Assembly: GCF_026914265.1 (NCBI RefSeq)
Contig: NC_069125.1
Location: 75,765,546 to 75,829,545, forward strand
Direction of reading: 5' to 3'
DNA: 64,000 nucleotides
From: Mya arenaria
Taxonomy: Eukaryota; Mollusca; Bivalvia; Myida; Myidae
Under the pieces are notes generated by a model. That model was not told the DNA's origin, did not search any database, and saw nothing but the letters and a program-made list of their open reading frames with translations. The position numbers and the translations under genes are program-made. This document shows positions 2,242 through 52,412 of this stretch, piece by piece. The first letter of the stretch is position 1. The number at the start of each line of letters is the position of its first letter.

Positions 2242-4113
2242 TTAAGCCTCGCCCCACCACGGACCAGGCCCGCTAGCCCAAGGGTCCGTTGTTGAAGGGT
2301 TGTTACCGAAAATATATCCCCAGGGGTCAAGGAACGCAGCGAAAGGGTCATTATTCATGCCCATACTTTGTGTGGAGGCTGTATCGGAAGATCCCTGTTG
2401 CGACTGTCTTTCCTGTTGGTTCATTCTTGCGTGTTGCTCCGCTAGGGTCAGACCGAGGAAAAAACTGGCAGGGTTCTCTTCGTTTGCTAGCAAGTCTGTG
2501 ATTGCCCTTCTTTGCTCACTTTGAGTACTGTTCTCTGTACCTAGAATTCGCCCTGTAAGCCTATCCACAACTCTAGCACTGATTTTGTCCAGATAAGCGT
2601 CGTTCACCTGACTTCCAGGCACCTGTTGCTGACTTTGTTTTTGCGAATGTTGTTTATTGACTTTGGCATTTTGCTGCTGTTTTTGCCCTCTCTGGTTATT
2701 TTTATTATTCTGTGGCGGAGAAATTTGCCGAGTTTGCGTTTGAATCGTAATTGTCCGTGTTTTGTTCCTATGCTGCTGTTGCTGTGTCTGTTTCTGTTGT
2801 TGCTGCTGATATTGTATGCTGGTGCTTGCCTGGTTGATTGGTAGATCGGTCGGTTTGTTTTGCCTTACTTGTAGATTCTGGAGCTGTTCCTGCTGGTTAT
2901 GCCGATTCTGGAGCTGTTCCTGCTGGTTATGCCGATTCTGGAGCTGTTCCTGCTGGTTATGCCGATTCTGGAGCTGTTGCTGCTGGAGTAGCTGATTCTG
3001 AGGTTGTTGCTGCTGGTGTTGCTGATTCTGGGGTTGTTGCTGCTGGTTTTGCTGAGGCTGGCTGTTCGGCCATTGCTGGGTTTGGGGGTACTGCTGTGCA
3101 GGCGAGTTAAATACGTGAGGATTCGCTACCATGCGAGGAATCGGCCCACTGTTGAAATCTGCATTCATTATTGGAGGATTCGGTTGTAGGGCATATTGGA
3201 TTTTCCGTGATCCTGTGTTAGGAAATTGCTGTTTGCTTTGTCTAAGCTGGTGAACCGGTTGTTGGGGATGGTGTATGGCTAGTATATTTTGGTTAACCGG
3301 TTGTTCGGGCTGGTGAATGAATGGTATATGTTGGTTTACAGATTGTTGGTGCTGGCTTATGACTGGTACATGTTGATCACCCGGTTGTTGGGGCTGATAT
3401 ATGACTGGTATATGTTGATTAACCGGTTGCTGGGGCTGATGAATGACTGGTATATGTTGATTAATCGGTTGCTGGGGCTGATGAATGATTGGTGTATGTT
3501 GATTAACCGGCTGTTGGGGCTGGTTTATGGCAAGTATTGGCTGATTCACCAATTGTGGAGGCTGGTTTATGACTGATATTGGCTGGTTTACTGGTTGATT
3601 AATAAGAGTACTTTGCTGCTGTAAAGCGACTGAATGTGATGAAGGTAATGGTGAGTTATTTTGAGGTTGCTGAGGTATGAGGGGATTCATGTTGCTAGCG
3701 AGTTGTTGTGGACCAAAAAATGGTCCGTTGTGTCTGGCGACGTGGTGTTCATGTACAGTGGGAGGCGTGTTGGTGTGGTAAGGGATTGTATGTGTATGAG
3801 GTAAAATCGGTGCCGGAGTATGTGTGTGATTGGGTATGATGTCATGGGAATGAGCTTCGTGCATCTTGATTTTTCGTTCCAGCATTTGAACCCTCGCCAG
3901 GAGTACCGACACAGCGTCGTTAGGCGGTGGCGGAACCTTGTTAGGGAATTGCATGAGCGGAGGTTGCGTGCTGGCTGGAGTAGTAGTGGTGGAGGTGGTT
4001 GTAGTTGCTGCAGTGGTGGTCATTATGGTTGTGATTAAAGGTGAAGTCGACGGGGGCTTTGGTATGGACTTCTTCGTAACGAAGCGGAATCTATCGTCTA
4101 TTGGCCGAATATT
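2242..4113 (-). CDS. Long Thr/His/Gln/Asn/Pro-rich low-complexity coding exon (probably last exon)
   Basis: The frame from the first in-frame ATG (4023) gives 593 residues, but it stays open upstream to about 4165 and the extra residues look coding (RPIDDRFRFVTKKSIPKPP). A CAG acceptor at 4114-4116 would start the exon at 4113. Order of parts: Thr run; short heptad-like helix (VSVLLARVQMLERKIKMHE); His-rich stretch; about ten 14-residue units of the type QPQQPVNQHIPVIH; Gln-rich tract with HNQQEQLQNR units; basic Thr/Gln stretch; an ordered-looking segment (YLDKISARVVDRLTGRIL); and a Trp/Gly/Pro tail ending GPWWGEA. No membrane segment is visible. The acceptor is in phase 0, as is the donor of the last receptor exon at 5431 on the same strand, so this may be that gene's C-terminal exon. 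Otherwise it is the 3' exon of an unknown gene. The function is not recognised; composition resembles prion-like or extracellular-matrix proteins. Confidence 0.6.
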   Translation of the reverse strand, partial: NIRPIDDRFRFVTKKSIPKPPSTSPLITTIMTTTAATTTTSTTTTPASTQPPLMQFPNKVPPPPNDAVSVLLARVQMLERKIKMHEAHSHDIIPNHTHTPAPILPHTHTIPYHTNTPPTVHEHHVARHNGPFFGPQQLASNMNPLIPQQPQNNSPLPSSHSVALQQQSTLINQPVNQPISVINQPPQLVNQPILAINQPQQPVNQHTPIIHQPQQPINQHIPVIHQPQQPVNQHIPVIYQPQQPGDQHVPVISQHQQSVNQHIPFIHQPEQPVNQNILAIHHPQQPVHQLRQSKQQFPNTGSRKIQYALQPNPPIMNADFNSGPIPRMVANPHVFNSPAQQYPQTQQWPNSQPQQNQQQQPQNQQHQQQQPQNQLLQQQQLQNRHNQQEQLQNRHNQQEQLQNRHNQQEQLQNLQVRQNKPTDLPINQASTSIQYQQQQQKQTQQQQHRNKTRTITIQTQTRQISPPQNNKNNQRGQKQQQNAKVNKQHSQKQSQQQVPGSQVNDAYLDKISARVVDRLTGRILGTENSTQSEQRRAITDLLANEENPASFFLGLTLAEQHARMNQQERQSQQGSSDTASTQSMGMNNDPFAAFLDPWGYIFGNNPSTTDPWASGPGPWWGEA

Positions 4114-16672: not shown

Positions 16673-17477
16673 AATTCCAGTTTCATAAACAGTACTACAC
16701 AACATTTGGTACTTACTCGCGTGTATATATATATATATATATTTTTTTTTATTAGTTTCAACGTTCGTTTTTATTGAGTGTTATGCCATTATTAGCTACA
16801 AAACAATGTATTAATATTCTTATATTGTTTTTCATTCCGGGGTTTTATGTACTTTTAACGATATTTACATCGTACCATCTTTCTCATTGGCAACCGCTAA
16901 CAGTTAACCATTATCCGAGTACAAGCAGTTTGATTATTGTAAATTAACATGGTAAAAGTGTATAATGGAATCAGCTTTCAAAGTGATTCATTAAATGGCA
17001 CGTAACCCCAGTTTAAGTTGATCATTTGCCATTTTAAGTGATCACAGTTGATTAAAATGATATTTATTGGCAACGACGATGAGCACTTAATGCTTTTTGC
17101 GCCGCCTATGGAATTGTATATCAGATCATGACTTCTTAAGGAAACATTCAATTTTGTTAATCACACCACCGGGGTATTGCCAGTGCAATATCACATTAAA
17201 ATATAAAATCTGGTTAGTTATCCGCGTTGGCGTGATTTAGGTTGATATATATAATTATGTTCGAGAGATGATGAGGATGAAACACCAGCGTCTCAAATAC
17301 TTGCTGGGGAGTATCAAAGTAAAAGGTAATATTGTTGCTTAAGTTTGATGGATTTTTCTTTCTGAGATTATGTTTCTTTTTGTCTTACCTTAAAATTCAA
17401 AAGCATTGTTTCTATATTGACATTTATTGAACATTTCTTTTCTTATTTTTCTCTGTTTTAAGTATTCTTCATTTCAG
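16673..17477. other. Spacer, probably including a 5' UTR intron
   Basis: AT-rich sequence with an AT microsatellite near 16727-16742. The last 40 bases form a polypyrimidine tract ending in an AG just before the prepropeptide start, which fits an intron in its 5' UTR. Confidence 0.45.
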
Positions 17478-17483
17478 CCAACA

Positions 17484-17906
17484 ATGAACATCACCGGTTT
17501 CGTTTTTCTGGCAGTTGTGGCGGTGGCGGTTCACGCCTTTCCCGCGTGGTTTGAACCAGAGGAGCAAATGCTTCCCATGGACTATGACCCTGCTACCTAC
17601 TCAGACGATTTTCTCTCCAATGATGAGTATCTGCTCGAAAACACCGAGCCATTCGTGCCAGTAATGAAACGTTCGGATGGCGGCCTCATGTCCGTTTCAA
17701 AGAGGATCCACACGTGCGCGTTTATGCGGCGTCTCGGGTTACCCATCGGTCTGTGTCTACGCGGCTCGCGTTCGCGCGTCTCCAGCGTTCCTCGCCAGGT
17801 TCCGGAGCCCGCGGCGCCACGGCGTAAGACAAACCCTTACGCGTACTTGAAGGGACAATGGCCAATGCAGCATATGCTAGGGGGAAGTGTCGGCAAGAGG
17901 AAGTGA
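17484..17906 (+). CDS. Neuropeptide / peptide-hormone precursor (140 aa)
   Basis: The start ATG (17484) follows a good acceptor (tattcttcatttcag, exon from 17478), so the frame's earlier ATG at 17427 is intronic. Signal peptide MNITGFVFLAVVAVAVHA is followed by an acidic spacer. Dibasic sites come next: a KR after PVM, then a KR after SVS that releases a peptide beginning IHTCAFMRRLGLPIGLCLRG. Its two cysteines are 12 residues apart and could form one disulphide loop. A RRK site further on precedes a last peptide starting TNPYAYLKGQW and ending GGSV before G-K-R-K, a classic amidation and cleavage signal. The layout (signal, acidic spacer, cyclic peptide, amidated peptide) is diagnostic of a secretory-granule prohormone cut by PC2-type convertases. 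I cannot place it in a known family; elevenin, allatostatin-C and CCAP have different cysteine spacing. Confidence 0.8.
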   Translation: MNITGFVFLAVVAVAVHAFPAWFEPEEQMLPMDYDPATYSDDFLSNDEYLLENTEPFVPVMKRSDGGLMSVSKRIHTCAFMRRLGLPIGLCLRGSRSRVSSVPRQVPEPAAPRRKTNPYAYLKGQWPMQHMLGGSVGKRK

Positions 17907-21898: not shown

Positions 21899-24800
21899 AT
21901 GTCAGACATTGCAGATCGTGGGCGCGGCGGTGGAAGGCGTCGAAGGCCCCGTGGAGGACTGACAGGACCGATGAGAAAGGTATTCAGATACTTATTTTGA
22001 TCTTCGAGTTCAACCGAACCACAGTGGTTTGATTTTTTTGAAATAAATGTGTTGTGGCCATGCTGGAAGTCATCGTGTAGTGCTTGCGGGTTAGAACCAG
22101 TCACCCAGTTAGCTCAGTTGGTTGGTGCGCCGTGCTAGTGTTCCAGCGGTCGTGGGTTCGAGCCCCACACCAGGCGCACTGTTGCTTCCAAGTTTACTTT
22201 CTGGTGGCAGCAGTAAACGACTGGAGTGCCTCTGAGGGCCTAAAAGGTTAATTGGGGGAGAGGTGTAGTGTGTGTGGGCTAGAACCAGGCACCTGGTTAG
22301 CTCAGTTGGTTAGAGCACTGTGGTAGTGTTCCGTCATGGGCTCAAGCCCCACACGGGGCCCACTTTTCCTCCAAGGTTTACCTTAATTGTTAATAATTCC
22401 ATCCACAAAATAATCATTAATTATAAATAAAAACGTAACTGATATAGCTAGCCAATCCAAGTCATAGATATCATATTGTTTGAACACTGAATTGGTGTTA
22501 AAAACAATTAATATACTGGTATATACAAAATAAATCCAGACAATATTTATCTTCGTGATGGCACAACAATTATAAATATCTGATCATAGAATCCAGCATT
22601 TTGCTAATAAACATATACACCATACTCGCGAAAAATAGCACTGAAATGACTTCCACTTCTCCTTTCGACTTGTTGAACATAGCGTCACCCGATGGACCCA
22701 TGAATTCACAATCTTTTCCAGCACGAACTAAGTACCAGTGTAATGTACTTCCTTAATGCATGCCGATATTTGAATAATTGTTACCTAGCATTCCATAAAT
22801 AAAATCGTTGAAATCTGTTACTATATATATCGAAAAAATACTGATTTTGAGTCCCTCAACTCTTGACAGTCATAAGTTTTGATTTGTTTTTAAGAAAGAT
22901 ATCAAGTACCGTGCTAATTAAGTGCCTTCAGAAAACCAAATAGATTGTTGTGATGTATCATTTGTTCAGAAAAAGATACATTTCGTGAAATTTTCGAGCA
23001 TTGTTGTGAATACTCATGTGTTTCCATTCATGTACATGTGTGCATAATTCAGGTAGAAAAGAATATTCACGCACAATAAATGCATCAGTGTTATTTGAAT
23101 TTCATTGTTCTTATTTTAACACTAAAATTGATCTGCATGTTTTGCAATTTGAACCAGATTTTCCCATTTCTAAAAATAAACTATTTGTTTGCGACCTTTA
23201 CAATGCAGGAGATGGTCAAACAGGTGCCCAATCTATAAATTTAATGTACCTTCATGAAGTGTTGGCAGATATCGAGTCATGTGGTTTTTCGACGTATTCT
23301 GCCACTGGTTGACTACAAATACGTTTTGTACAAATCAAATGATTTTATAAATGTAAACAATGTCTCGGTAAAGACTCTTTGATTTTGGGTTTGGAAACAC
23401 CTCCTAAGATTCAAGTGCAGTACCTTTTTCCTCTAAAAACACACACTGTGTCAAATACCAGAGTAAGAAAATGTTCAAAATGTTCAAAATCGTTTTATTT
23501 TCTTGCAAAACTCATTCATTTACTGCACCACCACCCCCCAAAATTGTCTTACCCCCTCCACCCATTATTGAAATGTTGAATGTTTCGGATCAGTTTAATA
23601 TTTAAAAAAAAAAAGAAGTCAAAAGTTGCAAATGAGCACAATTATAAAAACTGAATTATGTAAACTACAGTCAGATCTGAGATTTGGACCATAGCTGATA
23701 TGTGGACCTGGTCCCTTATGTTCTCTTATGGTCTTAGAACCAAGGAATGGTCATTTTGTCTGGACCATAATATTGTCTTTCCATCTGGGCTGTATTTCAC
23801 CAATGTGGGTCTTATGGTTAGCCAATCTTAGTCACATGGTTGGCCAGCCTGTTGTATGGTCCGTAAATATGGGTTGTATGGTTCACCAATCTGTGTCCTG
23901 TGGTTGGCCAATCAGGGTTGTATGGTTTGTTAATCAGGGCTGTATGATTTGCTTATCTGGGTGGTATTGTTGGCCAATCTTGGTGTATGGTTAGCTAATC
24001 CGGGCAGTATGGTGGGCCAATCTGGGTTTTGTGTTTACATTGGATTGTGTAAAGAATTAGAAAATCTGTACAAACAATTCATATTCAATGATACTCATGC
24101 AGCAATAGGTTGTTTCATATATCTTAGAAGTCCAAGTGTTAGCTATATTTCCATTAAGTGATATCAACTTGATGCTTATACAGTTAGTAGGAATGGATAT
24201 TCATTTAGGTGTTTTAATGTCATAATGTGGCTATTTTAGGACAGAGACTATGATATGGATACAACACCAACCCGGCCAATCATTCTTGCAAAACATGAAG
24301 ATCGTGAAATGTCCAGTCAGGTGAGTTCTTAAAATTCTATATAAAATTTATCATTAGGGAATTACAACAATACCATTTCAGAAAAAATGCCCTTTATTCT
24401 AACCATACTCCTCTATTACTTAGAACCTGCCAGTATCTTAGTTATGTCCACCTCTTCTAGAGCAATTCTACAGCAATATTTCATCATTTAAATGATACCT
24501 TCAGAAATATCTTGTCAAAAGACATATTAGTATTTTCAAACATCTTTTTATGATTGTTTCTCAACCTACATTTCATCAAAATTATAGCTTTATGCCACAA
24601 GGGTGCATGCACAGGTTTTGGGGGCTGGCCAAGAGTAAAATACAAAGTTGTTTAATATCCTTTTAGAACTATGCCAGTTTTTTATGGTATTTTATTGTAA
24701 GTTTGTTTTCAATTTTGAAAATAACATTTTTTCTGTAATGAATCTCAGAACAATTATATAATAAAATGTTTTACTCTTTGATATCATAATTGTAAAAAAA

Positions 24801-27800
24801 CATACCAAAATGTAAAAAAAAATGAAGTCGGAGACCGAGTTCGAACCGGTGTCGCCAAAATTGCAGTCCAGTGTTATATCCACTGTGCTATGAAGGCTTA
24901 CTCTAAACAGGTGGAATATTTAAGCTATATACCTAACATGGTCAAATCACATGATAACATCGACTAGCCAATCACGCATAAGGAATGAATTCTACTAGGT
25001 AGACATACCTAGTAATATTTTTTAATGGAAAAATATGAAAAAACTGTGAAAATTAAATTAATTGTAAACTGTGTGGTACTTCAGTTAGTAAGTTCCAATG
25101 CATTGTACACATCGATACCAAGTGTATGTCAGTTTTTGACATTTTTTTTTTCACTGTTTCATTATACGGAGTACAGTCCCTTTAAAACTGACACGTTTTA
25201 GTTACTCTGGAAAAGAAAAAAAATCCTAAATTTACCTGGTTCTTTTTTGGTTAATTATTTCAATTTTCAAATGAGAAATTGTGTTTTTTTAGTGAAAGAC
25301 ATGAGAGAAAAACCGAAACATTGTTCTTGCCAATTTTTTATTAAATCAGATTACATTTAAGAAAGAAGTTGATGAAGCAAATTAATATGTGGCTGGATTT
25401 AGGATTTTTTCTCAATCAGGGGCAGGGTCTTGAATTTATCCAGGGTATTTGGATTAACCACAAATATTGTTGTTCCACCCAGGAAACACAGTGTGTGTTT
25501 GTGGGAGGGGGGAGGTGTATTTGGGGGAGGGCAAGGTGGGTGAAGGTGGTACGGTGCATTTGGGGAAGGTCAAGTTGGGGGAAGGGGGCAAAGTGCATTT
25601 GGGGGAGGTCAAGGTGGGGGAAGGAGGCAAGGTGTGTTTGGGTGAAGGCAAGATGAGTTGCTGATGGATACATTACCATTTATTTAAGTTGTTTAAGGTG
25701 CTGATGTAATTGTAATTGCTGGTTTTCCAGATGTCACGGGAGAGTCGGGGCTCCAGCTCCACTTCACCTGCATCAACGTCTCGCCACCCTGAGAAGCCAG
25801 TGACTGTTCTAAAGTCTCGTGAGGAGGGGCAGCGACCTATTACCTCTGGTGTCTCCCTTCCAAGTATTCCAGTGAGCACCCTGCAGGGGGAAACCCCGCC
25901 CCAGCCCACTTTCCTCCATAGAACCATAGAAGGTAAGTGGCTTTTTTGTCTAGATAATGTCCTAGTGTCATCCTTCAAAAATATGAATTTATGTGACAAT
26001 GATAACAGGGTGTTTAGGCTACTTGAAATGAACTTTACATTTGTTTATAAGACTTTGTATTAAAATTTGAGTCTGAATACACAATTAAAATAGCTGTTAC
26101 TGACTAAATCCAGAAACTCTGATGGAAATCATGAACAGCTGCTAGCTTTATGCTCACCTTGCTGTAAATACAGTTATATTTGTATTTTTCAGGAAGTAAT
26201 AAACTATCTGGACCACAGGAGATGTCTAGGTGCCTGAAGCTGATAGATGAGCATAACCAATGGTGCGAACAGGCAAGCGAGGTACGTTAGAAATTATTAC
26301 ATGTTTAATGTTTAGCAAGCAACTTCATTTATTGAAAACTGATATGGTTTTATAAGTTGAGGTATTGTCATGCAAGCATTTTTGTTGAAGGCAATCATCC
26401 GCATACAAAAATTTAAACCTTGGCTATAACTGAAAACACAAGTGTTGGTGTTCACTCTGTGGTGCTCCTGTTTTTGACTTGTTTCACTAGTTAGTGCTGA
26501 TAATCAAGTTGAAGTTTTTATATTGATACCAATTGTGTTTATACTGTTGTTAGACATTGCTGGAGCAGACAGACTTCCTTGTGGTTGGTGTAGTTGGGTT
26601 GCAGGGATCTGGCAAGTCCACTATTCTCTCCTTGCTGGCTGGCAACACAGACACTGATCCATCCAGGTAAGCCACTCTGACCTTACTTGGTAGTGTGGTT
26701 GGGCTGCAGGGAATCGGCAAGTCAACAGTTTTCTCCCTGCTGGCTGGCAACACCGACACTGATCCATTCAGGTAAGCCACTCTGACCTTACTTGGTAGTG
26801 TGGTTGGGCTGCAGGGATCCGGCAAGTCTACGGTTCTCTCCCTGCTGGCTGGCAACTCAGGCACTGATCCATTCAGGTAAGCCACTCTGACCTTTCTTGG
26901 TAGTGTGGTTGGGCTGCAGGGAATCAGCAAGTCTACGGTTGTCTCCCTGCTGGCTGGCAACACAGACACTGATCCATCCAGTTAAGCCACTCTGACCTTA
27001 CTTGGTAGTGTGGTTGGGCTGTAGGGAATCGGCAAGTCTACGGTTCTCCCCCTGCTGGCTGGCAACACAGACACTGATCCATCCAGGTAAGCCACTCTGA
27101 CCTTACTTGGTAGTGTGGTTGGGCTGCAGGGATCCGGCAAGTCTACGGTTCTCTCCCTGCTGGCTGGCAACTCACACACTGATCCATCCAGGTTAGCTAC
27201 TCTGACCTTACTTGGTAGTTTGGTTGGGTTGCAGGGATCTGGCAAGTCCACTATTTTCTCCTTGCTGGCTGGCAACACAGACACTGATCCATTCAGGTAA
27301 GCCAGTCTGACCTTACTTGGTAGTGTGGTTGGAATGCAGGGATCCGGCAAGTCTACAGTTCTCTCCCTGCTGGCTGGCAATTCAAGATGCTGATCCATCC
27401 AGTTAAGCCACTCTTACCGTACGAGATAGTGACAGAGGGCTGCAGGGATCTGGCAAGTCTACAGTTCTCTCCCTGCTGGCTGGCAACTCAGACGCTGATC
27501 CATCCAGGTAAGCCACTCTGACCTTACTTGGTAGTGTGGTAGGGCTGCAGGGATCCTGCAAGTCTACAGTTCTCTCCCTGCTGGCTAGAAACACAGACAC
27601 TGATCCATCCAGTTAAGCCACTCTGACCTTACTTGGTAGTGTGGTTGGGCTGCAGGGATCCGGCAAGTCTAAAGTTCTTTCCCTGCTGGTTGGCAACTCA
27701 CGCTGATCCATCCAGTTAAGCCACTCTGACCTTACTTGGTAGTGTGGTTGGGCTGCAGGGATCCGGCAAGTCTAAAGTTCTTTCCCTGCTGGTTGGCAAC

Positions 27801-30800
27801 TCACGCTGATCCATCCAGTTAAGCCACTCTTACCGTACTAGATAGTGACAGAGGGCTGCAGGGATCTGGCAAGTCTACGGTTGTCTCCCTGCTGGCTGGC
27901 AACACACACACTGATCCATCCAGTTAAGCCACTCTTACCTTACTTGGTTGTGTGGTTGGGTTGCAGGGATCCGGCAAGTCTACAGTTCACTCCCTGCTGG
28001 CTGGCAACTCAGGCACTGATCCATCCAGGTAAGCCACTCTGACTTTACTTGGTTGTGTGGTTAGGCTGCAGGGATCTGGCAAGTCTACAGTTCTCTCCCT
28101 GCTGGCTGGCAACACAGACACTGATCCATCCAGTTAAGCCACTCTGACCTTACTTGGTAGTGTGGTTAGGCTGCAGGGATCCGGCAAGTCTACAGTTCTC
28201 TCCCTGCTGGCTGGCAACACAGACACTGATCCATCCAGGTAAGCCACTCTGACCTTACTTGGTAGTGTGGTTGGGCTGCAGGGATCTGGCAAGTCTACGG
28301 TTCTCTCCCTGCTGGCTGGCAACTCAGACACTGATCCATCCAGGTAAGCCACTCTGACCTTACTTGGTTGTGATGGAGGGTTGTAGGGATCCAGCAAATC
28401 CACAGTTCTCTCCCTGCTGGCTGGCAACACAGACACTGATCCATCCAGGTAAGCCACTCGTGACTTTACTTGGTTGTGATGGAGGGTTGTAGGGATCCAG
28501 CAAATCCACAGTTCTCTCCTTGCTGGCTGGCAACACAGACACTGATCCATCCAGGTAAGCCACTCTGACCTTACTTGGTTGTGATGGAGGGTTGTAGGGA
28601 TCCAGCAAATCCACAGTTCTCTCCCTGCTTGCTGGAAACACAGACACTGATCCATCCAGGTAAGCCACTCTGACTTTACTTGGTAGTGATGGAGGGTTGT
28701 AGGGATCCAGCAAATCCACAGTTCTCTCCTTGCTGGCTGGCAACACAGACACTGATCCATCCAGGTTAGCCACTCTGACCTTACTTGGTAGTGTGGTTGG
28801 GTTGCAGGGATCCGGCAAGTCTACAGTTCTCTCTCTGCTGGCTGGCAACTCACACACTGATCCATCTAGTTAAGCCACTCTTACTGTATTAGGTAGTGAT
28901 GGGGGGTTGCAGGGATCTGGCAAATTCATAGTTCTCTCCCTGCAGGCTGGAAACACAGACACTGATCCACATAGATGCAAGGTGCAAGAAACTCTTTTCT
29001 AGAGAAAAGCCAGATACAGTTTTCTTTGTCAATTATTTATAAAAAATTATTTATATCACTGTTTCGTTTTATTACTAACCTACACCAATGGACACATTTT
29101 ATTTCAGAAACTACATATTTCCTGCTCAGACAAGGGAGGTAAGGGAGGAGTGTGGTCACATGACCAATGGCATTGACATCCATGTCACTTCACAGAGGGT
29201 CATTCTTCTTGATTCACAGGTAGAAGAACCAGTTATGAAACTAACGTGTATGCTTTTATTTGCAAGCTTACCTTATAGTCTTTAAAAGTATAAATACACA
29301 TTTTATGAAATTTCAAATATGTGTACATCCATTTAATTAAAATTATTCAATTTTTGTTTTTAAGTTTATGAATTAAAGTAGAATTTAAGCTTTACCTTTT
29401 CCTTTCAGCCATTACTAAGTGCTTCAGTGTTGGACCAATTAATTCACAATGAGAAGAAAATCCCACCAGAGTACAACTTTGCAGAGAATTATGCTGAAAT
29501 ACAGGTACAGTACACTCCACGCGGAACTACCACTTTCCATTTCCTCGGCGGATTTTGGTCATCGCGGACAAAACATCCAATTGATCATAATCCTCTTTCC
29601 TCTGTGTTTTTACTCGTTCACCCACCGAGGCTGATCAGTGGACCGTATAATTACAATCGCCGCGTTACTCGGAGGTAAAAACACCGCGAAACTCGGAGGA
29701 AAACCGATAAGAATCTCCCACTGTATCTAATTTTGTTTAATTTATTTGATATTTTTTGCTACACCCGTATTTATTTATAAAAATAATTTATTTCGCGTAC
29801 CTAATTTTCGGACATCCAAAGGACATCAATCATAACTTTCACACTTACCAAGTTTCACAGACGAAGATTATCTATCTATCTATCTACCTAACCGTATACA
29901 CCACTGTTGACAATTAGTGTTAATTAGTAAATTCTCATCCTAAACGATGTATTGCATGTAGCAAGAGGAAGTGTGAAATATTTATTGGAGGATTAAACAA
30001 CAAGGGCAATCAAGGGATTAAGAAAACAAAGACATGACATTTTTGTAAAACGATCGGCCAATAAACTTTAAAACTTGTACCACCTTATAGACTGTAAGAA
30101 GCAATTATGTACAGTTATACTTATTGAATCATCAATAAAAGTCAACACATTCAATGAGGTAACTAATTAATGTGATGAATTAAAGTTGGAAATGCAATAC
30201 TTAAGTTACATTCGAAAACACCACTCAGACACATTAATCCTGCATAACAATATACATGCTCTCAATGAGATCCTCGTGGGTAAAACTGTGAGTTATGTGA
30301 CGTCACACAGTGTGACTGTTTGATCTGAAGCCGATAGAATGTGTTATTCATTTCAATGCATGTATTCAATGGTGTTTAATGGGATTTTAATTAACTTGAT
30401 GAAGGATTTACACCTATATGCGTAATAAATAAGTTTAGAACCATTGATAACTACGGATATTTTAATAAGTGTTAATAAGTGGTAAAAATGCAAATTAAGA
30501 AATACTGACCGAAAAATATTCACACCTACAAAGTTCTCAACACCTTCGTTACTCCAATCTAATTAAGTTCTCAACACCTTAATATAGTAAGAGAAAGATG
30601 AAAATAACAAACACAAACGCACGCTATGGTATATCTTTTAATTACATAATGTGAAAAACAACAGTTGTTTGACGATGCTGATGAAAATTTACAATAATTG
30701 TTTTTAAAAAGAAACTTACTGTACTTTTAAAAATTAATTATCTAATTGTTTAATTCTGTTTTAACAGAAGCAATGTACTGTAGTAGCTATGCACAAAACG

Positions 30801-33800
30801 CGGAGTTCCGCGATTAGGTCAATAAATCGATACGATCACCGGCACTACCAGCAATAAAACCCTCCATAGAAAACGATTGACTCGGTGCAACTCGGCGAAA
30901 TTTAGCGAGGAAAAAGGTTGCGTACTCGGCGGAAATCCGCGATAAATTAAAAACACCTCCGAGTCACCGAGGAAAGTGGTAGTTCCGTGTGGAGTGTACT
31001 GTAGTTTTAGTTGAGCCCATCTGCAGTGAGCTCTACATAATTGTCACAATGTATTAATGTCCATTTGTCCATATATGTAAGTATATGTTTGGTTTGTTCC
31101 AGATGTAAAATTCACCCTGCATTTAGGAATTTAACTATTACTTGGCAAAAATGTTCAAAATGAGATGATGGCCATCTAACAATCCTTCAAATTGTTCCCC
31201 TGCCAAATATGCTATCAAAAATGAAACACTTTCAATGCCATAAACAAAACATGGCATTCTGCCAGAGGAAATTTTGACCTGATAAAAGGTGAAACTTAGT
31301 ATAACAACTTTTTTCAGATCTGTTCATCAGGAGGTTTAAATCAACAATAGCATGTTTGATGTGTTGGCCTTTTGCGGACAAAGCTCTTATTCTAGATAAC
31401 CTCTTGGGCATATAAAATAATAAGAAAATACTTTCTGGAAATACTATCTACTGATAATTCAAAATCCTTACAATTGCAATATTGGAAGAGTGCCCTGTCC
31501 AAAAAGATCTGGTTTATGACAGTATACATTATAGATTGAGTATTTTGTTGATGATTGTTTGCAGAGCATGCAGCATGTGTCATTCCTGTTGACGGTATGT
31601 AATGTTGTGTTGGTGGTGCAGGACTGGTTCACAGACATGGCCCTACTCCGCTTCCTCCTCACCGCCGAGATGCTCAAACCCTCCACCCCAACCCATGACA
31701 CCAGCTCTACCTCCGACGACCAGCCAGACTTCTATCCACATGTCGGTAAGGCTATTTTGCATCTATTGACCAACTTTGTTCCTAATATTGTTTATAGCTT
31801 TAGTACAACATATAAATCTTATGTTTTTTATATTTTCTTTTATCAAAATACATTCTAGGTGGAGCATTCCTTAGAGTGGTTTAAAATTTTGATAAGATAA
31901 TAAAGATCAGCATTTTGTCATTTGTTGAATTCCTAAAGAATAGCTAAATCTGAAGTTGAGACTTTTAAGTAGTGAAATGTGAAGTGTATTCCAGTGTTTG
32001 TCCAGAACAAGGCTCGGCGGGAGGACTTCAGTGTGGAAAACTTCACAGCCATGCAAAAAACACTTGCCAATATATTCGCTGACTCCAAACTCAAGATAAA
32101 AGGTAGGTTGTAACATTACAAGGTAGATTTACTAGCTTTTCCAATTAATGTCACTATTTGCTAAGTTCCTTTGACACCATCCATATCAATTTGCATATTT
32201 TTCAATGTTCATTGTTAAGCAATTATAGGTAAGAGTATTTATATGTGTCACCATTATTCATGTCTAAGGGTCACAATTATCTCATTTTTCATCTCCAACA
32301 TTCTCAAATCAAAATGAATTACACACTGTTGCATACTTCAATTAAATCACACAGTTGCGTACTTCAATTAAAACACACTGTTGCATACTTCAATCAAAAC
32401 ACATCTGTTGCATACTTCAATTAAAACACATCTGTTGCATACTTCAATTAAAACACACTGTTGCATACTTCAATCAAAACACATCTGTTGCATACTTCAA
32501 TTAAATCACACTGTTGCATATTTCAATCAAAACACACTGTTGCATACATCAAATTAAATCACACTGTAACATACTTCAATTAAAACACACTGTTGCATAA
32601 TTCAATCAAAACACATCTATTGCATACTTCAATTAAATCACACTGTTGCTTACTTCAATTAAAACACGCTGTTGCATACTTCAATCAAAACACATCTGTT
32701 GCATACTTCAATCAAAACACATCTGTTGCATACTTCAATTAAAACACACTGTTGCTTACTTCAATTCAAACACATCTGTTGCATACTTCAATTAAAACAC
32801 ACTGTTGCCTACTTCAATTAAATCACACTGTTGCATACTTCAATTAAATCACACTGTTGCATACTTCAATCAAAACACATCTGTTGCATACTTCAATTAA
32901 AACACACTGTTGCATACTTCAATTAAATCACACTGTTGCATACTTCAATTAAAACACACTGTTGCATACTTCAATCAAAACAAATTTGTTGCATACTTCA
33001 ATTAAAACAAACTGTTGCATACCTTCAATTAAAACCCACTGTTGCATACTTCACTTAAAACACATCTGTTGCATACTTCAATTAAAACCCACTGTTGCTT
33101 ACTTCAATTCAAACACATCTGTTGCATACTTCAATTAAAACCCACTTTTGCTTACTTCAATTCAAACACATCTGTTGCATACTTCAATTTAAACACATCT
33201 GTTGCATACTTCAATTAAAACACACTGTTGCCTACTTCAATTAAATCACACTGTTGCATACTTCAATTAAATCACACTGTTGCATACTTCAATTAAATCA
33301 CATCTGTTGCATACTTCAATTAAAACACACTGTTGCATACTTCAATTAAATCACACTGTTGCATACTTCAATTAAAACACACTGTTGCATACTTCAATCA
33401 AAACAAATTTGTTGCATACTTCAATTAAAACAAACTGTTGCATACCTTCAATTAAAACCCACTGTTGCATACTTCACTTAAAACACATCTGTTGCATACT
33501 TCAATTAAAACCCACTGTTGCTTACTTCAATTCAAACACATCTGTTGCATACTTCAATTAAAACCCACTTTTGCTTACTTCAATTCAAACACATCTGTTG
33601 CATACTTCAATTTAAACAAACTGTTGCATATTTCAATTAAAACCCACTGTTGCTTAATACTTCAATTCAAACACATCTGTTGCATACTTCAATTAAAACC
33701 CACTTTTGCTTACTTCAATTCAAACACATCTGTTGCATACTTCAATTTAAACAAACTGTTGCATATTTCAATTAAAACCCACTGTTGCTTAATACTTCAA

Positions 33801-36714
33801 TTCAAACACATCTGTTGCATACTTCAATTAAAACCCACTGTTGCTTACTTCAGTTAAAACACATCTGTTGCATACTTCAATTAAACGAACTGTTGCATAC
33901 TTCAATTCAAACACATGTTGCATACTTCAATTAAAACAAACTGTTGCATACTTCAATTAAAACACACTGTTGCATACTTCATAAATCTGGATAACAACAT
34001 GGTTTTAAAGAAATAATCTCAATTTTCATTATTTTTTTCATAAATATAAATACGACAGTGTATGAAATAAAAAACACTAATCTACATTAATTAAATTGTG
34101 AACGTTATCTAAGTGTTTCAAAAGGTAAAGTTATATCACAAAAACTTATAATTCCTCATGTAAATAACATGTACATGTACTATTGTTGATCTACTTAGGT
34201 TAAACCACATGTATTGATTTTCACTGGTATAAAACAAAAAAACTGTACATCTGAAAATTGTTTTGTCAGATGGTCAGAAGAGGAAAATATTTTTTTGACT
34301 GTCTGAAAAATTAAGATAAAAACAAACAAGCAAACCAATTTTTTGAAAGCATTTGAAAGCAGAGCGGGCAAAAGCAAAAAAAAAGAATTGAATGTTGACA
34401 ACATTATTAACCCTTGCGTTGACTCTATAAATATATCATTTTACATACCTGTTAAAGTTTTTCAGAAATTGTCACAGACATAAAATAACTCATTTTTGTT
34501 GCTTTCTAAAAAATGGCTTCACAATAAAGAGTTGTCTGGCATTTATTGGATTTTTGGGTAAAAAATAGGAGCATTTGCTTAAATATTCATTTATCTGTCG
34601 CTGTTCTTAAAAAAGGTGCGGTATATCCCTAGAAGGTAACATCAATCTGGTGCTGCTTGAATGATGTTGTGTATATATTGTTTAGGTGATGTGGGGATTC
34701 TGACTGGGAGGCAGTCATTTGGGCTGAACCCATCGCACTTGAAGACCAACCAGAACCTGTTCCTGCTTCCTCAAATGGACAAACAGAAGGACAACAGCCA
34801 AGGTGAGGGCTGGACTTTGGAATATCAAATGTAGCTTATTCTGGAACCAGGCAGTTTCTTGATCATGCATTATAGGATTTTCAAAGACCTGCCATGAAGG
34901 TTCACTATGATAAGGTGGCGTGTTGCTCACAAGAAGCAGGTCTGTACCTCAAAGATCAAGGTCACGCTAGATTGATAACTGATAACTGTAGGAGTGTACC
35001 TTGTCCTGGCCGCCTATAAACGAATCATTATAAGATTTCCTGGAAACTTAACATGAATGTTCATTAAGATAAGGCAGTGTGTCACGTTTAAGTCCCAGGA
35101 CTGTACCACAAAGGTTACGATTATGCTTAAGAGGCTAAATGTCAAAAATTCAAAATGAATACTGTTGATAGGACTCTGGTCAGGACGGAATTTTGTTGGG
35201 CCGTTTTTTTTTTTATCATGCATTATACGATTTTCAAGAAACTTGCCAGGAATTTTTACTATGATATGGTGGTGTGTCTCGTGCAAGACCCAGATTTGTA
35301 CCCCAACGGTCAAGGTCAAGCTTAGAGGTCAAAGGTTAAAATGAGTATTGTTGATTCTACCTATGTTGGTTCTGTACTCTGCCATGCATTATAGCATTTT
35401 CAAAAAAAGCTGAAATGAATGTTCTTCATAATGAAAAGGCATGTCAGGCACTAGTCCAAAAGTCAAGGGCGTGCATTTTAAAATGTGTTTTATTATGACT
35501 GTATGTTGTTTGGTCTGCATTTGAACCATGTATCATAGGAATCTCAAGTAGCTGGGCACATTTTTTCTCCATGATAAGGCAGTGTGTTGGGCCTCAGGCC
35601 TGTATCATGAAGGTCAAGGTCACCCTTACAGGTCAAATGGAGTTGTGTTCATAGGCCAGTAATTTGTCCAGACCACATATCATTTATGCATTATTAGATT
35701 GTCAAGTTACTAAGCACACATGGTCAGAATTATGAGGTTGTGTGTCACATGCAAGACCAAGGTGTTCCTGAAAAGTCAAGGTCACAAAAATGAGGGTTGA
35801 TATTTTAATTTTATTTTGGTTGAAAATAGAGGTGCACCTCTATATTTAGATTGACTCCTTTGAATTTGATAGAGATGCACATCTAAGTTACAAAAAAAAA
35901 GGTGCACTTGTATTTTCTTCATTGGTATGTCATATAAACATCATAACTAGTATCTGCTATCAATTTAATGTGATTCTGTGTTGCAAATGTTCAGAAGAGT
36001 AATATGTGTCAAAATCTCACTTGAATGGCTCAACATTCTAACTGTTGGCATCTAGTTTTCAAATGTATTGCAGCTTATATAGGAAAGCCCTGTATATTCA
36101 TCAAGTATTTTGTTCTTTGTTCTAGATACATTGATGAGCCAGCTGCCTGAGTACAGAGGCTACCCAAGTTTTCAGACCCTGATTAACTCGCTGCGTGGCC
36201 AGATCCTCTCCATGCCACGCGACCTACATACACATACAACACTGTCAGAGAAAAACTGGTATGCAACTCTGTGTTAAGCCTAAGATGCAAAAATGTTTAG
36301 TGTTTGAAAGGAGAAAGTTGTCGCTGTTTTCGTTCTCTTGTAAAAACATTAACATAGGCTTCAAATGAATTGCCATTCAAGATTTTCTTAAGAAAATTGG
36401 TACATACGTTGCCAGATACATAACAAGCATGTACGAGCAGTTCTAAAAAATAGTTGTGTAATGCCCATTATTTGTCAACAAACAATAGACAAGAGTTGCC
36501 ATTCACTCTGCAGCACTGTTAGTTTTATTGTTATCATAGAAATAGTGTTTGTCATTTAAAATGTGAGAAAAGGTGAAGGATTCATAACTGAAGCAAGACT
36601 AAATGATCATTAAAGGAACTGTTAATATTTGTCAGGTTCCACTATGCTGCCAGAATTTGGGACTCCATCAAGAAATCCCAGCTGATAGCCGAGTACAACA
36701 GATTGTTGTTCTGA
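21899..36714 (+). CDS. SMG9: SMG9, nonsense-mediated mRNA decay factor (463 aa, 12 exons)
   Basis: Exons: 21899-21979, 24240-24320, 25731-25932, 26193-26281, 26554-26666, 29108-29219, 29409-29504, 31565-31745, 31995-32102, 34686-34802, 36126-36258, 36636-36714. All borders are GT/AG and in phase. SMG9 binds SMG8 and restrains and positions the SMG1 kinase that phosphorylates UPF1. The N-terminal third is Arg/Gly- and Ser/Pro-rich and disordered, with the VLKSREEGQRP motif matching the human VLMKPREEG. The G-domain-like part starts with LVVGVVGLQGSGKSTILSLL (P-loop) in exon 5, then GIDIHVTSQRVILLDSQ, ILDQLI-type and PPEYNFAENYAE segments, LLTVCNVVLVVQDWFTDMAL, VFVQNKARREDFS, LPEYRGYPSFQTLINSLRGQ, and the C-terminal FHYAARIWDSIKKSQLIAEY. 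Human SMG9 is somewhat longer, mainly in the disordered N terminus. The start ATG opens MSDIADRGRGGG. The gene looks intact. Confidence 0.95.
22075..22370 (+). mobile_element. Tandem pair of tRNA-derived SINE heads
   Basis: Two copies 188 bases apart share an upstream ttagaaccagtcacc-like lead, an A box (tagctcagttggt, at 22110 and 22298) and a B box (gttcgagcccc / gctcaagcccc). The T arm of copy 1 is a perfect stem (GTGGG TTCGAGC CCCAC). The anticodon arm does not fold into the standard 5+7+5 form and the acceptor ends do not pair, so these are tRNA-derived elements in SMG9 intron 1, not tRNA genes. Confidence 0.6.
23790..24030. repeat. Diverged tandem repeat of about 27-30 bp in SMG9 intron 1
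   Basis: Repeated motifs of the type tatggttggccaatctgggt, about eight copies with substitutions. They are non-coding and lie 200 bases before SMG9 exon 2. Confidence 0.65.
24825..24902 (-). mobile_element. tRNA-derived SINE head in SMG9 intron 2
   Basis: On the minus strand the sequence reads a tagcacagtggatataacac A-box region followed by ccggttcgaactcgg, a T-arm/B-box that forms a five-pair stem with one G-T wobble. Acceptor ends do not pair, so it is not a functional tRNA. This is a second, unrelated SINE head compared with the pair at 22075. The body and tail could not be delimited. Confidence 0.5.
25490..25662. repeat. G-rich tandem repeat in SMG9 intron 2
   Basis: About five units of roughly 36 bases containing gcatttgggggaggtcaagg and a gtgggggaaggaggcaa segment. 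The strand bias (G on the plus strand) and runs of four to five G make quadruplex formation conceivable. It ends about 70 bases before exon 3. Confidence 0.75.
26589..28975 (+). repeat. 105-bp tandem array, about 23 copies, derived from the SMG9 P-loop exon
   Basis: The first unit is the coding exon 5 itself (gcaggg of the GLQGSGKST segment at 26601). Copies follow at 26706, 26811, 26916, 27021, 27126, 27231, 27336, 27442 and so on to 28909. Each unit carries about 75 bases of exon sequence ending ACTGATCCATCCAG, a splice donor (GTAAGC in many, GTTAAGC in others) and about 30 bases of intron (ctctgaccttacttggtagt). Copies lack the exon's upstream part and its real acceptor. Because the period is divisible by three, minus-strand frames of up to 208 residues stay open; these are shadows. 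Later copies (28383-28909) form a diverged subfamily with gatggagggttgtagggatc, indicating at least two rounds of expansion. Confidence 0.95.
29508..31001. mobile_element. Non-autonomous terminal-inverted-repeat DNA transposon in SMG9 intron 7
   Basis: The left end begins CAGTACACTCCACGCGGAAC and the right end is its reverse complement with one change across more than 30 bases. A TA dinucleotide flanks both ends (29506-29507 and 31002-31003), consistent with a TA target duplication of the Tc1/mariner-pogo kind. Subterminal regions share Cgg/cgcggat-like motifs (ctcggcgga near the left, ctcggcggaaatccgcg near the right). There is no transposase frame in its 1494 bases, so it was mobilised in trans. 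The near-identical ends suggest it is relatively young. Confidence 0.85.
32318..33985. repeat. 26-bp satellite, about 65 copies, in SMG9 intron 9
   Basis: The unit is actgttgcatacttcaatta followed by aaacac, alternating 25- and 26/27-base variants (cactgttg and catctgttg). Blocks are themselves duplicated; for example the stretch from about 32870 to 33200 is nearly repeated at 33300-33620. It is not a CRISPR array: there are no unique spacers and the host is a eukaryote. Confidence 0.95.
34840..35800. repeat. Diverged repeat of about 170 bp, some six units, in SMG9 intron 10
   Basis: Each unit contains catgcattataggattttca, an actatgataaggtgg(t)gtgt segment, a gcaggtctgtacctcaaaga-type segment and usually tcaaggtca. 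Divergence is substantial. The weak frames on the minus strand are not coding. Confidence 0.6.
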
Positions 36715-47879: not shown

Positions 47880-49110
47880 TACATAACGCAGTCGATTACT
47901 CATCATCTAAAACTGCATGTTGGAAATCAGCTGTATTAGAATGGTCCATGTCTTTAAGGTAAAACTTTTGAAATGTTCTGGCATTTGACCAGCCTGCCCT
48001 TTCCAGAATTTGTGGGAGTGCTACACCTTCTTTATGTGCTTTGGATGTGGATGCAGATCTTGTGCTATGTGGCTTAAATTTGGGGTCAATCCCAGAAGTT
48101 ACTAGAACTTTTTTCACCCATTTGCTAATTGTTGCTGGAGAAGCTGTTTTGTATGGGCTTATTGTGGTTATTATTAAATAATCACCTGTTCTCAAAGCTT
48201 CAGTATTTTCAAGATATTCAAGTATGGTTTCTACAATGCAAATGTTTCTTTTTCCTGTGTATCTATGCAAAACAATTGGCTTTAAATGTTTCCCAGGCCT
48301 AGACTGTTTTAGTAGTTGGCTTGGGGAGACTGTAATAGTTTGTTTATCTGAGCTGATATCAATGTCTTGTATTTTAATGGAGTAAAGGGTTTGACACCTC
48401 TGCCCAGTCACAAGCAAGAACAACATACTGTACACAGTTTTTGTGATAATTGTGGAAGAGTTTCAGTTTTAAGATTATGTAAATATTTTAACACTACATT
48501 GACATCCCAAGTACTTTGATATTTTGGAAAAGCAGGTCTGGTATTAAAACACCCTTTCATAAATCTTGTCAAAAGGTCATTGTCATGAATATCTATATTA
48601 CTGCAAAAACGAACGAACAAATACACTGATTGCACTTCTTGCTGTGTTAAGTGCACTATAGCTCAAGCCATTATTGAATAGTGATGACAAAAAATCCAAC
48701 ACATGCTTTATATTGGGTCTAGTGGGATTTGTATCCTGTCCACAGTAATGAATCCATCTTCTTATATATCCATCATATTGTTTTTTCGTGTAGTCTCGCC
48801 ATGAGTTGATGATGATATCACGAGCTTGTTTTGAAATGCCTTTGTTTTTAAGGGATTTCCGGATAACCGAAAAACTCCTAATCTCATTTTTGGAAGTGAA
48901 TGAATTTTTTGAGGATTGTGAAGTAGAGTCAGAATTGTTCGTTAAAAGAAGCAGATGACATTGGCCGCTGATGAGTTGGGTGAGACTTGGCCACCACGGT
49001 TGAGTCAGCCATATAGGACAAACCAGGACGCAGTCTGCTTTGTCTTCTACTATCTTCTGTAAGACTCGTGGTAACATGAGGAGGAAACATGTAATACACA
49101 GAATTGTTCC
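47880..49110 (-). mobile_element. DIRS-type retroelement fossil: end of RNase H region and tyrosine recombinase
   Basis: The recombinase part (47896-48435 with 48598-48900) shows an N-terminal SAM-like segment (SWRDYTKKQYDGYIRRWIHY) and the catalytic half with an Arg in TGQRCQTLYSI, the HSTRSASTSKAHKEG box (H-x-x-R) and the terminal FQKFYLK tyrosine. Upstream lies the pol tail typical of the order (VLVCPIWLTQPWWPSL). The copy is broken in a few places. At about 49110 it meets Helitron sequence abruptly. The RT/RNase H piece at 52413-54019 stops at the equivalent point, so both may be halves of one interrupted element. Confidence 0.75.
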
Positions 49111-50300
49111 ATTCTAAAACATCTTCATCAGTTAGCTCTATGCCTTGTTGTTTAGCTATCACTTGTGTCTGGCCATTAAAGGTCTGCTGCTGATAATGTA
49201 ATAAACCAGGTACAAGGTCCTAACTGCCTGATCATTCCAAGTAGATTGTAGAAGAGCTTATTGAAATATGCAGGGGAATCTTTTGGAGGAAATGTATGCC
49301 AAGATAATTTCTTACAATGTCAGCCAGATTATCTTTCAGTTCTCCAGCAGTAACATTTTGTTGCTTCCCTTTACGCAGACTGATACTTATGCTGTCACTA
49401 ACTTCTTTTGCCTCTGTTCTGTACTGAGCATAAAAAATGTAGTTTTGGCAAAACGTCTATCACAGTTGAGTATTCTTGTCTGGAAATATTTTTTCAATGA
49501 TAATTTCCTTGGTCTATCAGAGGAAAAGCTGAGGGAAGCTTAACTCTTCTGCGTGTTTATCAGAAATGAAGCTTTTTGGTTTCTTTCCTTCCCCTGTAGC
49601 AATGTTCAGAATTTGTTTTTGTTATGCAATAATATCTTTCGGTTGAATACATGAGTCAAATGGTAAGCCACTTAATCTTGTCCGTTCATCTTCAACCTGA
49701 TTCTCAAGGTCTTCTTGCATGTTTTTTTCATCAGCAGCTATATTTTCTCTGTCATTGTCTTTGTCACCAGGCTGGACCATGTCCTCAGTAACTGGTTCTG
49801 TCACTAGGGAGTCCCAAAGGTCTTGTTCACAGTTATCCTGTATCCAAGTTTTATTCAGCATGACATCTTCATACAGTGGATTTTGAAGGACATATTTCAA
49901 AATATGAAGAGCATTCCTTATTTTGTCTGGCCATATTGTCTGATTAAATACATGACCTCTGCACATTAATTTTCACTTTACCCTTACAGTAATGAAAGTC
50001 TCTGAATATGGAACTCTAGGTAGAATTGAGACTAATTGTTCAGGTTCAATTGGTACCGCGTGGTAGAGCTAATATTTTCATGAAAGGAATTCTCCTGGAT
50101 ATGAAAACAGTTTTAAGAGAATTCAATTCTTCAATCTGTTGTGGAATTTCATCTACTTCAAGACCGTTAACAACAGTTAGACTAGGTAGGGTTTATGCCT
50201 TAAAAGTGTTTTGGCATGACATACAAATATATTCAGTACCGTTGTTTGAAATTTTAGCAGTTCTACAGTTTAGTTGTGTTATATAATCACTTTTCTTTTT
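49110..50300 (-). mobile_element. Helitron Rep/helicase protein fragment
   Basis: From right to left: a DUF6570-like part (NGLEVDEIPQQIEELNSLKT, PFMKILALPRG near 50060-50200), then RNALHILKYVLQNPLYEDVM (49860-49940), an acidic linker, KLSLKKYFQTRILNCDRRFA (49440-49500), KLFYNLLGMIRQLG and TWFITLSAADL (49170-49270), and VIAKQQGIELTDEDV (49120-49162). This order matches Helitron transposons (Helitron_like_N domain). Several frameshifts and stops interrupt it, and it ends at about 49110 before the Rep catalytic motifs and the helicase, which are absent. Neither the TC 5' end nor the CTRR hairpin 3' end was found. Confidence 0.65.
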
Positions 50301-50469
50301 GCCTCTGGGCTTCATGCTCCCGTTCATTCCTGTGTTATTTTACTTCAGAGTCTTCATGTTTTCTTTTCAAAAATTTGTCCTTTCCAAGACAAAACATAAA
50401 AAAGTTGTAAAAATGGTAAATGTGTGAGAGTGCAGCTTTAACAATTTATACTGCATTCAAAAAGAGATC

Positions 50470-51251
50470 TTATGAAAAATTGTAACTTTCATTTCCTAAT
50501 CCTGGAAAAGTAATGTTGAAATCCAAGTTAGCATTTCGCATGGCATTCTCCAGAACAGATTTTTTCAATTGGAAAAGTTCACATTGTTGAGCTATTTTTA
50601 AATCTAAAAGTTCAATCTCCTTTTTTACTGAGCAAACTTCAAGGTCATGAAGCTCCTCGGTCAGCTCAATCCTATCCATGCACTTCCTACGACCTATGAA
50701 GAAATTGCATATTTTTGTTTTTAAGTATATTTTTGTTTTTAAGTTGATACATTTATAATGTACACCACAAAAATGCAAATATTCCATAGCCTGAATTATA
50801 ATGAAAGCAAATTTACTCTAAAAACATGCTGTTGATGATTTGAAAATAAAATAAGGCATTAAGACTACCAATTTTGAAAACAAATATATCTTTCAAATGC
50901 AAAAGGCAGTTAACAAAAGGCAGTTAACAACTGAAATTAATATGTTTTCTTCTTTAACCAAATTTCATCTGCACCCATTATGCCATTCATTCTTTCTTGT
51001 AAGTGTTAAATATTTATGATTTGACTGATATATATCTTATGTTCCTGATTTTGTGTTAAATATGAATATACCATTGAAAATGTACTCATAGAAACATTTC
51101 AAAACAATGAGTTATACAAATGGTTTACGTTTCTTTGTATTTGTCTGCATCACTCTGGGTTCATCTGGGTGTTCATGGGACACACTTGGATGTTCAATGG
51201 CCTGAACTGACACTGTTTCTTGATGCGGGCTGATGTGCTTACTCTCTGTCA
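50470..51251 (-). CDS. Two 3'-terminal exons of an unidentified coiled-coil protein
   Basis: Exon 51251-51129 (TESKHISPHQETVSVQAIEH..., acceptor TTTCAG, donor GTAAAC) joins in phase to exon 50693-50470 (RRKCMDRIELTEELHDLEVC, then a heptad-rich helix EIELLDLKIAQQCELFQLKK, stop at 50470). The short basic stretch TKKRRRK at the junction could be a nuclear localisation signal. Such tails are common in trihelix-type proteins. A possible further upstream exon at about 52300-52365 has an acceptor but no usable donor. No start was found, so this is a partial gene or gene relic wedged between Helitron and DIRS sequence. Confidence 0.4.
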
Positions 51252-51564
51252 CTGAAATGTTCATGCAAAGTTACAGTGATGTATAAGAAAATGTGTAAAA
51301 CTTACTTGCATATTAGATTATGGAAAGTAATTGGACAGAACATATAGTACCGAGCAGTACCACTTGTGAAGACAATTTTGACCACTTTCTTACTTTAGAA
51401 AACATTCTAACCTCCCTTTAGGATGTTATACTACATCTCAACTGGAGGCAATGGTTACATACTATAAAGAAAAACATGGTACTGTGTACAAAAACTAAAC
51501 ATTACTTCAATTGATATCATTCTACATGTAGAAATTGAAGATGAGAGAAGAAGGTAACTAACAA

Positions 51565-52185: not shown

Positions 52186-52412
52186 TTCTTTAACATTGAT
52201 TATAAGTAAGTAGCCCTCAAGAACAATCCTGACTATCATTTATCAAGATAAACTGAACTTTAAAATAAAAGGCCTCATAAAAGTAGATTATAAGACTCTT
52301 GCTTGGTGCTTGTTGCACAACCAAATCTGCAACACTGGCAGCATCTTCCACAGGCTCTATCACTGAAAATAAGATTTGTTTCCCTATTAATGGTTCTTAT
52401 AGCTACAAAACA

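Follow-up and report, generated by a model that had tools for sequence, protein, structure and literature searches.

The 3' part of the SMG9 P-loop exon is copied 22 times into the following intron in Mya arenaria: probably a neutral, exon-seeded minisatellite

Does a tandem array that multiplies the end of an exon, splice donor included, inside the next intron act on the gene that carries it, or is it simply removed with that intron? This question is raised by the SMG9 gene of the bivalve Mya arenaria, which we analysed within a stretch of 64,000 bases of contig NC_069125.1 (the window). There, the 3' part of exon 5, which encodes the P-loop, is copied head to tail 22 times, with its donor, into intron 5. 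With a probability of about 0.67, we consider the array to be a neutral exon-seeded intronic minisatellite that is spliced out with intron 5.

By building a spliced model of the gene by hand, we obtained a protein of 463 residues without any internal stop, from exons bordered by GT-AG at all 11 introns. A version of this model in which exon 8 was short of its 5' 57 nt matched human SMG9 chains in a PDB search (E=1.5e-101) along two long stretches, and this match together with the intact 12-exon model gives full-length homology to SMG9. With Pfam (E up to 0.001), the only match was to ABC_tran, a P-loop model, at 20.7 bits versus a cut-off of 25.

The array was delimited in two ways. First, Tandem Repeats Finder (TRF) reported in the intron 5 region a repeat of period 105 at 26588-28969, with 22.7 copies, 89% matches and a score of 3490. 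Second, anchoring on the motif TGYAGGGA gave 23 units spaced by 103-106 bp, once an off-register hit at 28630 was excluded. We took 26589-28969 as the array span and the motif-anchored segments as units, copies 2-23 being the extra ones (Table 1). The array occupies about 94% of the 2441 bp of intron 5 and, with tandem units in the range of roughly 10 to 100 or more bp and many copies, it has the form of a minisatellite. The exonic part of unit 1 encodes the Walker A sequence GLQGSGKS. The donor of exon 5 is present in the copied unit, whereas its own acceptor, with the AG at 26552-26553, is absent from it; other acceptor-like AGs do occur within the unit. Thus TRF, motif anchoring and the spliced SMG9 model bear out what had been proposed from the letters alone (hereafter the sequence-only reading), namely a 23-unit array seeded by exon 5 that multiplies a splice donor and P-loop sequence in a single intron.

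Table 1. Coordinates, within the window, of SMG9, of the exons around the array and of individual array units.
Feature	Coordinates	Strand	Description
SMG9 gene	21899..36714	+	12 coding exons, ATG to TGA, 463 aa; hand-built model
SMG9 exon 4	26193..26281	+	following exon begins in phase 0
SMG9 exon 5 (P-loop exon)	26554..26666	+	start in phase 0, last codon cut after its second base; donor CAG/GTAAGC
Array unit 1	26589..26693	+	78 nt from the 3' end of exon 5, then 27 nt from the 5' end of intron 5; GTAAGCCACTCTGACCTTACTTGGTAG
Further 105-bp copies (22)	26694..28969	+	3' end of the last copy passes into unrelated sequence
Copy 2, potential pseudo-exon (78 nt)	26694..26771	+	from GGTAG to CAG/GTAAGC; phase as at the 3' end of exon 5
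Copy 7	27219..27323	+	6/7 of the exon 5 states that differ from the consensus, two of them in no other copy
Copies 11 and 12	27640..27845	+	two 103-bp units, common 2-nt deletion, 4 differences apart
Copies 18-21, sub-family	28371..28791	+	2-5 differences mutually; TGTAG (in-frame stop); GSSKS replacing GSGKS
SMG9 exon 6	29108..29219	+	normal acceptor partner of exon 5

The intronic 27 nt of the unit come from the very start of intron 5. Their derivation from the 5' part of exon 5 was rejected, the similarity between the two not being significant against shuffled sequences (P=0.21); comparisons of the 27-mer with intron 4, intron 6 and the stretch that follows the array gave nothing significant either (P=0.28, 0.34 and 0.44, respectively). 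Four long antisense open reading frames (ORFs) of 138-208 aa also lie within the array (26550-28857, minus strand); they are probably a by-product of a 105-nt period divisible by 3.

We then considered the state of the copies. A GT donor is present in 13 of the 22 extra copies (11 GTAAGC, 2 GTTAGC) and lost in 9 (8 TTAAGC, 1 ATGCAA), so that describing many copies as having an intact GTAAGC donor was fair. In contrast, the statement that each copy holds the P-loop coding sequence was too strong: a readable Walker A motif (G-x4-GK[ST]) remains in 12/22 extra copies, a count that leaves out exon 5 as well as copy 5, whose motif contains a stop. The unit corresponds to 35 codons and most copies are therefore in one common phase, with a frame-shifting indel in 3/21 of copies 2-22. 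Since 9/22 copies have no GT, 3/21 are frameshifted and the acceptor of exon 5 was not duplicated, the array does not constitute a cluster of tandem or mutually exclusive exons, in which every copy has its own acceptor, its donor and an intact frame.

The differences between units also tell something of the history of the array. Mean pairwise identity is 88% among copies 2-22, and pairs of units differ at 2-24 positions with a sub-family structure (Table 1). Neighbouring units are more similar to each other than distant ones (units 1-22, Spearman 0.24, permutation P=0.0015), as expected from local duplication, and copies 11 and 12 are to all appearances a recent duplication inside the array. 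The unit nearest to that of exon 5 is copy 7, with 5 differences, the next nearest having 8. Because it carries six of the seven states specific to exon 5, copy 7 shows, as far as shared states can tell, that exon 5 and the array have exchanged sequence. The exchange may have run in either direction: copy 7 would be a recent copy of exon 5, or exon 5 would have been overwritten by a copy-7-like unit.

If the copies served as coding sequence, their exonic parts should bear the marks of it. First, divergence from the consensus in copies 2-22 is 7.6% for the exonic 78 nt and 6.4% for the intronic 27 nt. Second, with substitutions only, 16/21 copies have a stop-free exonic part versus a neutral mean of 19.4 (95% range 17-21), and 13/21 do so when indels are read as they are; since the copies share descent and a single sub-family accounts for four of the five with a stop, this indicates the lack of an excess of stop-free copies rather than a true shortage. 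Third, the donor +1 position is changed in 8/21 of copies 2-22, a level that just 2 of the other columns among the 105 reach or surpass. Exon 5 differs from the array consensus at 7 positions, 6 of them synonymous (P=0.006, p_syn 0.325), and thus looks constrained itself. The copies, taken as a whole, look largely unconstrained, with no clear coding or donor constraint. Selection on the copies as coding sequence is not supported by the similar exonic and intronic divergence, the missing excess of stop-free copies and the variable donor +1, and two weak signs to the contrary stay.

These two signs, together with several properties of the splice-site candidates, weigh against a neutral array. 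Codon position 2 is quieter (4.6% divergence in copies 2-22, versus 9.7% and 8.4% at positions 1 and 3), which leans towards constraint, and the 44 unique changes in the same copies comprise 20 synonymous, 23 non-synonymous and 1 stop change, where 14.2 synonymous ones are expected (P=0.026). The latter excess is weakened once states common to exon 5 are left out (15/38, expected 11.2, P=0.097), and both signs may stem from exchange with the constrained exon 5. Moreover, half of the extra copies (11/22) have the very donor hexamer of exon 5, whose donor has the top leave-one-out score (12.1) among the 11 donors of SMG9. For acceptors, we used a matrix built only from the 11 true acceptors of SMG9 and compared leave-one-out scores. 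On this 11-site matrix, the common TGCAG scores 5.4, above 8/11 true acceptors, copies 7, 14 and 22 score 10.5-11.7, and the common GGTAG scores 2.4, above 5/11 true acceptors. The AG at the GGTAG place is kept in 17/22 copies, and the pyrimidine share before it is normal (0.53-0.71 over the 22 copies).

Other values set these scores in context. Among all AGs of the plus strand (n=3276), a score of 5.4 or more is reached by 3.9% and one of 2.4 or more by 8.7%, and the pyrimidine share 5' of the copy TGYAG is 0.29-0.47, versus 0.41-0.88 at the 11 acceptors of the gene. Taken as an exon-like unit, a copy thus has acceptors within the range of the gene on the 11-site matrix, a poor pyrimidine tract at TGYAG and, in half of the cases, the GTAAGC donor. 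Two further roles for the array were tried and dropped. Recursive splicing at each AG/GT was rejected, as the AGs at the exon ends are poor acceptors (-13.3 to -0.1 over 23 units). A function as RNA structure was set aside, as copies 2 and 3 folded together did no better than shuffles (z=-0.11).

For the 13 copies that have a GT donor, we worked through four ways of splicing. First, extending exon 5 to the donor of a copy leads to a stop at codon 190 in 13/13. Second, joining exon 5 to the TGYAG of a copy, and the donor of that copy to exon 6, inserts 62 nt and leads to a stop at codon 221 in 13/13. Third, joining exon 4 to the TGYAG of a copy leaves the frame open to the normal end in 13/13, with the loss of 17 residues. 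Fourth, joining exon 5 to the GGTAG of a copy creates a 78-nt cassette of equal phase at both ends, which is in frame in 7/13; of the other six, copies 5 and 21 bring a stop, and copies 14, 18, 19 and 20 lack the AG. The sequence-only reading had held that use of the copy acceptor would be out of phase and yield premature stops. This is right when exon 5 is joined to TGYAG; as a general claim it is wrong, given the open frames of the third and fourth routes. A join of exon 4 to 26605, the internal TGCAG of exon 5 itself, is likewise in frame, so that products of this kind could arise without the array.

Together, these data lead us to favour a neutral minisatellite with the following origin. 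As the anatomy of unit 1 suggests, a tandem duplication would have copied a segment made of the 3'-terminal 78 nt of exon 5 plus 27 nt from the start of intron 5. One-unit and multi-unit duplications and exchange, exon 5 included, would then have spread and diversified the array, in line with its sub-families and with copy 7; the mechanism may have been unequal crossing-over, slippage or gene conversion. Because the copies carry the donor but not the acceptor of exon 5, exon definition would most likely favour the first donor, that of exon 5, and join it to exon 6, the array leaving with the intron. Some cryptic use is possible and would give, depending on the frame, an mRNA with a premature termination codon (PTC) or an in-frame P-loop variant.

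The surroundings of the gene agree with a neutral origin. After merging 30 TRF rows by hand, we counted 21 tandem-repeat loci that cover 7712 of the 64000 bases of the window, 10 of them with at least 4 copies and a period of at least 20. In such a repeat-rich window, an exon-seeded array requires no special cause. Among the other minisatellites of the window, none of 10 arrays tested matched any part of the window outside itself and its 20-bp flanks (E 1e-4), a comparison that does not cover exons lying inside an array. One of the repeats is in SMG9 as well: a minisatellite in intron 9 (32321-33981), whose 26-bp unit is repeated about 63 times and for which TRF also reports periods of 53 and 423; it overlaps no exon. 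Another two, of 30- and 42-bp period, are overlapped by a minus-strand ORF of 593 aa rich in Q, N and P (2242-4023) without a Pfam match. No relatives were found in the viral and genome contig collections searched, as expected for an animal gene. In the literature, no title or beginning of an abstract among the matches listed describes an exon-derived intronic array, which is weak evidence of novelty as most subscription journals lie outside that search.

With a functional exon as the first of 23 units, an essential coding sequence has been put into the exchange pool of a minisatellite. The locus also offers two natural tests, one of the way in which exon definition selects the true donor although eleven others have the same hexamer, the other of whether intronic repeat number can tune a gene. 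If the spliceosome ignores the array, as we expect, the locus would show cleanly that a donor is skipped when no good acceptor accompanies it.

Among functional readings, the one to take seriously is that of a splicing decoy. By analogy with the decoy exon in intron 4 of OGT, the donor-bearing copies might attract U1 and partial spliceosomes without being spliced in; intron 5 would then be removed more slowly, and SMG9 output lowered or regulated as a result. The copies that share the hexamer of the real donor and the acceptor-like AGs found in several of them are what such a decoy would use. However, few columns of the unit vary as much as donor +1, and intron 5 is short, whereas decoy-bearing retained introns trend longer in the excerpt of PMC12017769. 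We consider a decoy unlikely.

Low-level inclusion of single copies as in-frame pseudo-exons is similarly unlikely. It would produce SMG9 variants of two kinds: one with a second P-loop segment of 26 residues (exon 5 followed by a GGTAG copy), the other with a copy in place of exon 5 from the P-loop on (exon 4 joined to a TGYAG copy) and short of 17 residues, among them the strand that precedes the P-loop. The open frames counted above (7/13 and 13/13 of the copies with a GT donor), the 35-codon unit that keeps most copies in one phase, the quieter codon position 2 and the mild synonymous excess are all compatible with it. Yet the exonic part is no more conserved than the intronic one, stop-free copies are not in excess, and a unit length divisible by 3 arises with a chance of 1 in 3. 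Nor would the exon 4 route bring a new kind of product, given the in-frame join at 26605. For copy 2, moreover, the spacer intron would measure 27 nt, which is too short for animal splicing.

Both ideas can be combined, in a version that we regard as very unlikely. The ladder of exon-matched donors and in-phase pseudo-exons would act as decoys that hold back intron 5, repeat number would set the dosage of SMG9 and of nonsense-mediated decay (NMD), and an in-frame second or altered P-loop would occasionally enter the SMG1-8-9 complex. Were this true, heritable variation in repeat length would tune an RNA-decay pathway.

The sequence-only reading had also put forward autoregulation, in which use of copy donors would give PTC-containing mRNAs that NMD removes, thereby tuning SMG9. 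The stop at codon 190 does fall upstream of later exon junctions in 13/13 copies. However, the scheme has no sensor: no feature linking the choice of splice site to NMD activity or to SMG9 level was found, and the copies and their donors are without clear constraint. In addition, cryptic sites in any intron can be expected to yield PTC products, and an NMD-degraded PTC transcript alone is not feedback. The idea is thus unsupported and, in our view, highly improbable. A false expansion or collapse of the array in the assembly is equally hard to believe: tandem arrays are error-prone and a single assembly was examined, but units that differ by 2-24 positions and form sub-families are not made by read-level stutter, even if the copy number may still be wrong.

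Other elements of the window deserve a brief description. Within SMG9, intron 7 contains an element with terminal inverted repeats (29508-31001), whose arms, as extended by the tool, lie at 29493-29538 and 30971-31016 and are 87% complementary. It is flanked by TA on both sides and is presumably a TA-targeting DNA transposon. Its start coincides with base +4 of the donor of exon 7, and its end, CAGTACACTCC, supplies positions +4 to +6 of that donor. Outside the gene, the region 47896-54933 has a minus-strand tyrosine-recombinase ORF (Pfam Phage_integrase, 6.2e-12) near two ORFs (52413-53491 and 53504-54019) that resemble reverse transcriptase and RNase H by eye; we take the whole to be a retroelement of DIRS/Ngaro type. 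Further on, 59410-61524 holds a minus-strand reverse transcriptase/RNase H ORF (RVT_1, 1.2e-21) with a zinc-knuckle-like ORF upstream, the latter by eye, and is by its appearance a Gypsy-like retroelement. On the plus strand, the ORF at 17427-17906, without a Pfam match, has by eye a start resembling a secretory signal and dibasic KR sites, and is possibly a neuropeptide precursor.

How does the SMG9 array compare with known systems? It resembles minisatellites, or intronic variable number tandem repeats, in its head-to-tail 105-bp unit, its sub-families, the greater likeness of neighbours and its intronic position. In contrast, its first unit is functional coding sequence and its unit contains an exon-intron junction; it is known from one assembly. 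In C. elegans, intronic minisatellites are statistically linked to multiple alternative splicing, according to the excerpt of PMC4039745. With the decoy exon of OGT intron 4, as presented in the excerpt of PMC12017769, the array has in common that an intronic sequence resembles an exon and contains sites that look like 5' and 3' splice sites. The same excerpt reports that rarely used 5' splice sites are needed for detention of that intron. Function was demonstrated there by deletion and blocking, whereas in SMG9 the candidate decoy is a multi-copy array of the upstream exon. As in tandem duplication of exons and mutually exclusive exons (excerpt of PMC9013439), the duplicated exon sequence adjoins its parent exon within the gene. 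Unlike those exons, the SMG9 copies represent only the 3' part of the exon without an acceptor of their own, number 22 extra units of which 9 have no GT, and show no clear coding constraint. Finally, the array is akin to the splice sites born by duplication that are described in the excerpt of PMC4974935, in that the duplication spans an exon-intron boundary and copies splice signals; in those cases a new intron was created, whereas the SMG9 copies fall inside an intron that we take to be older than the array.

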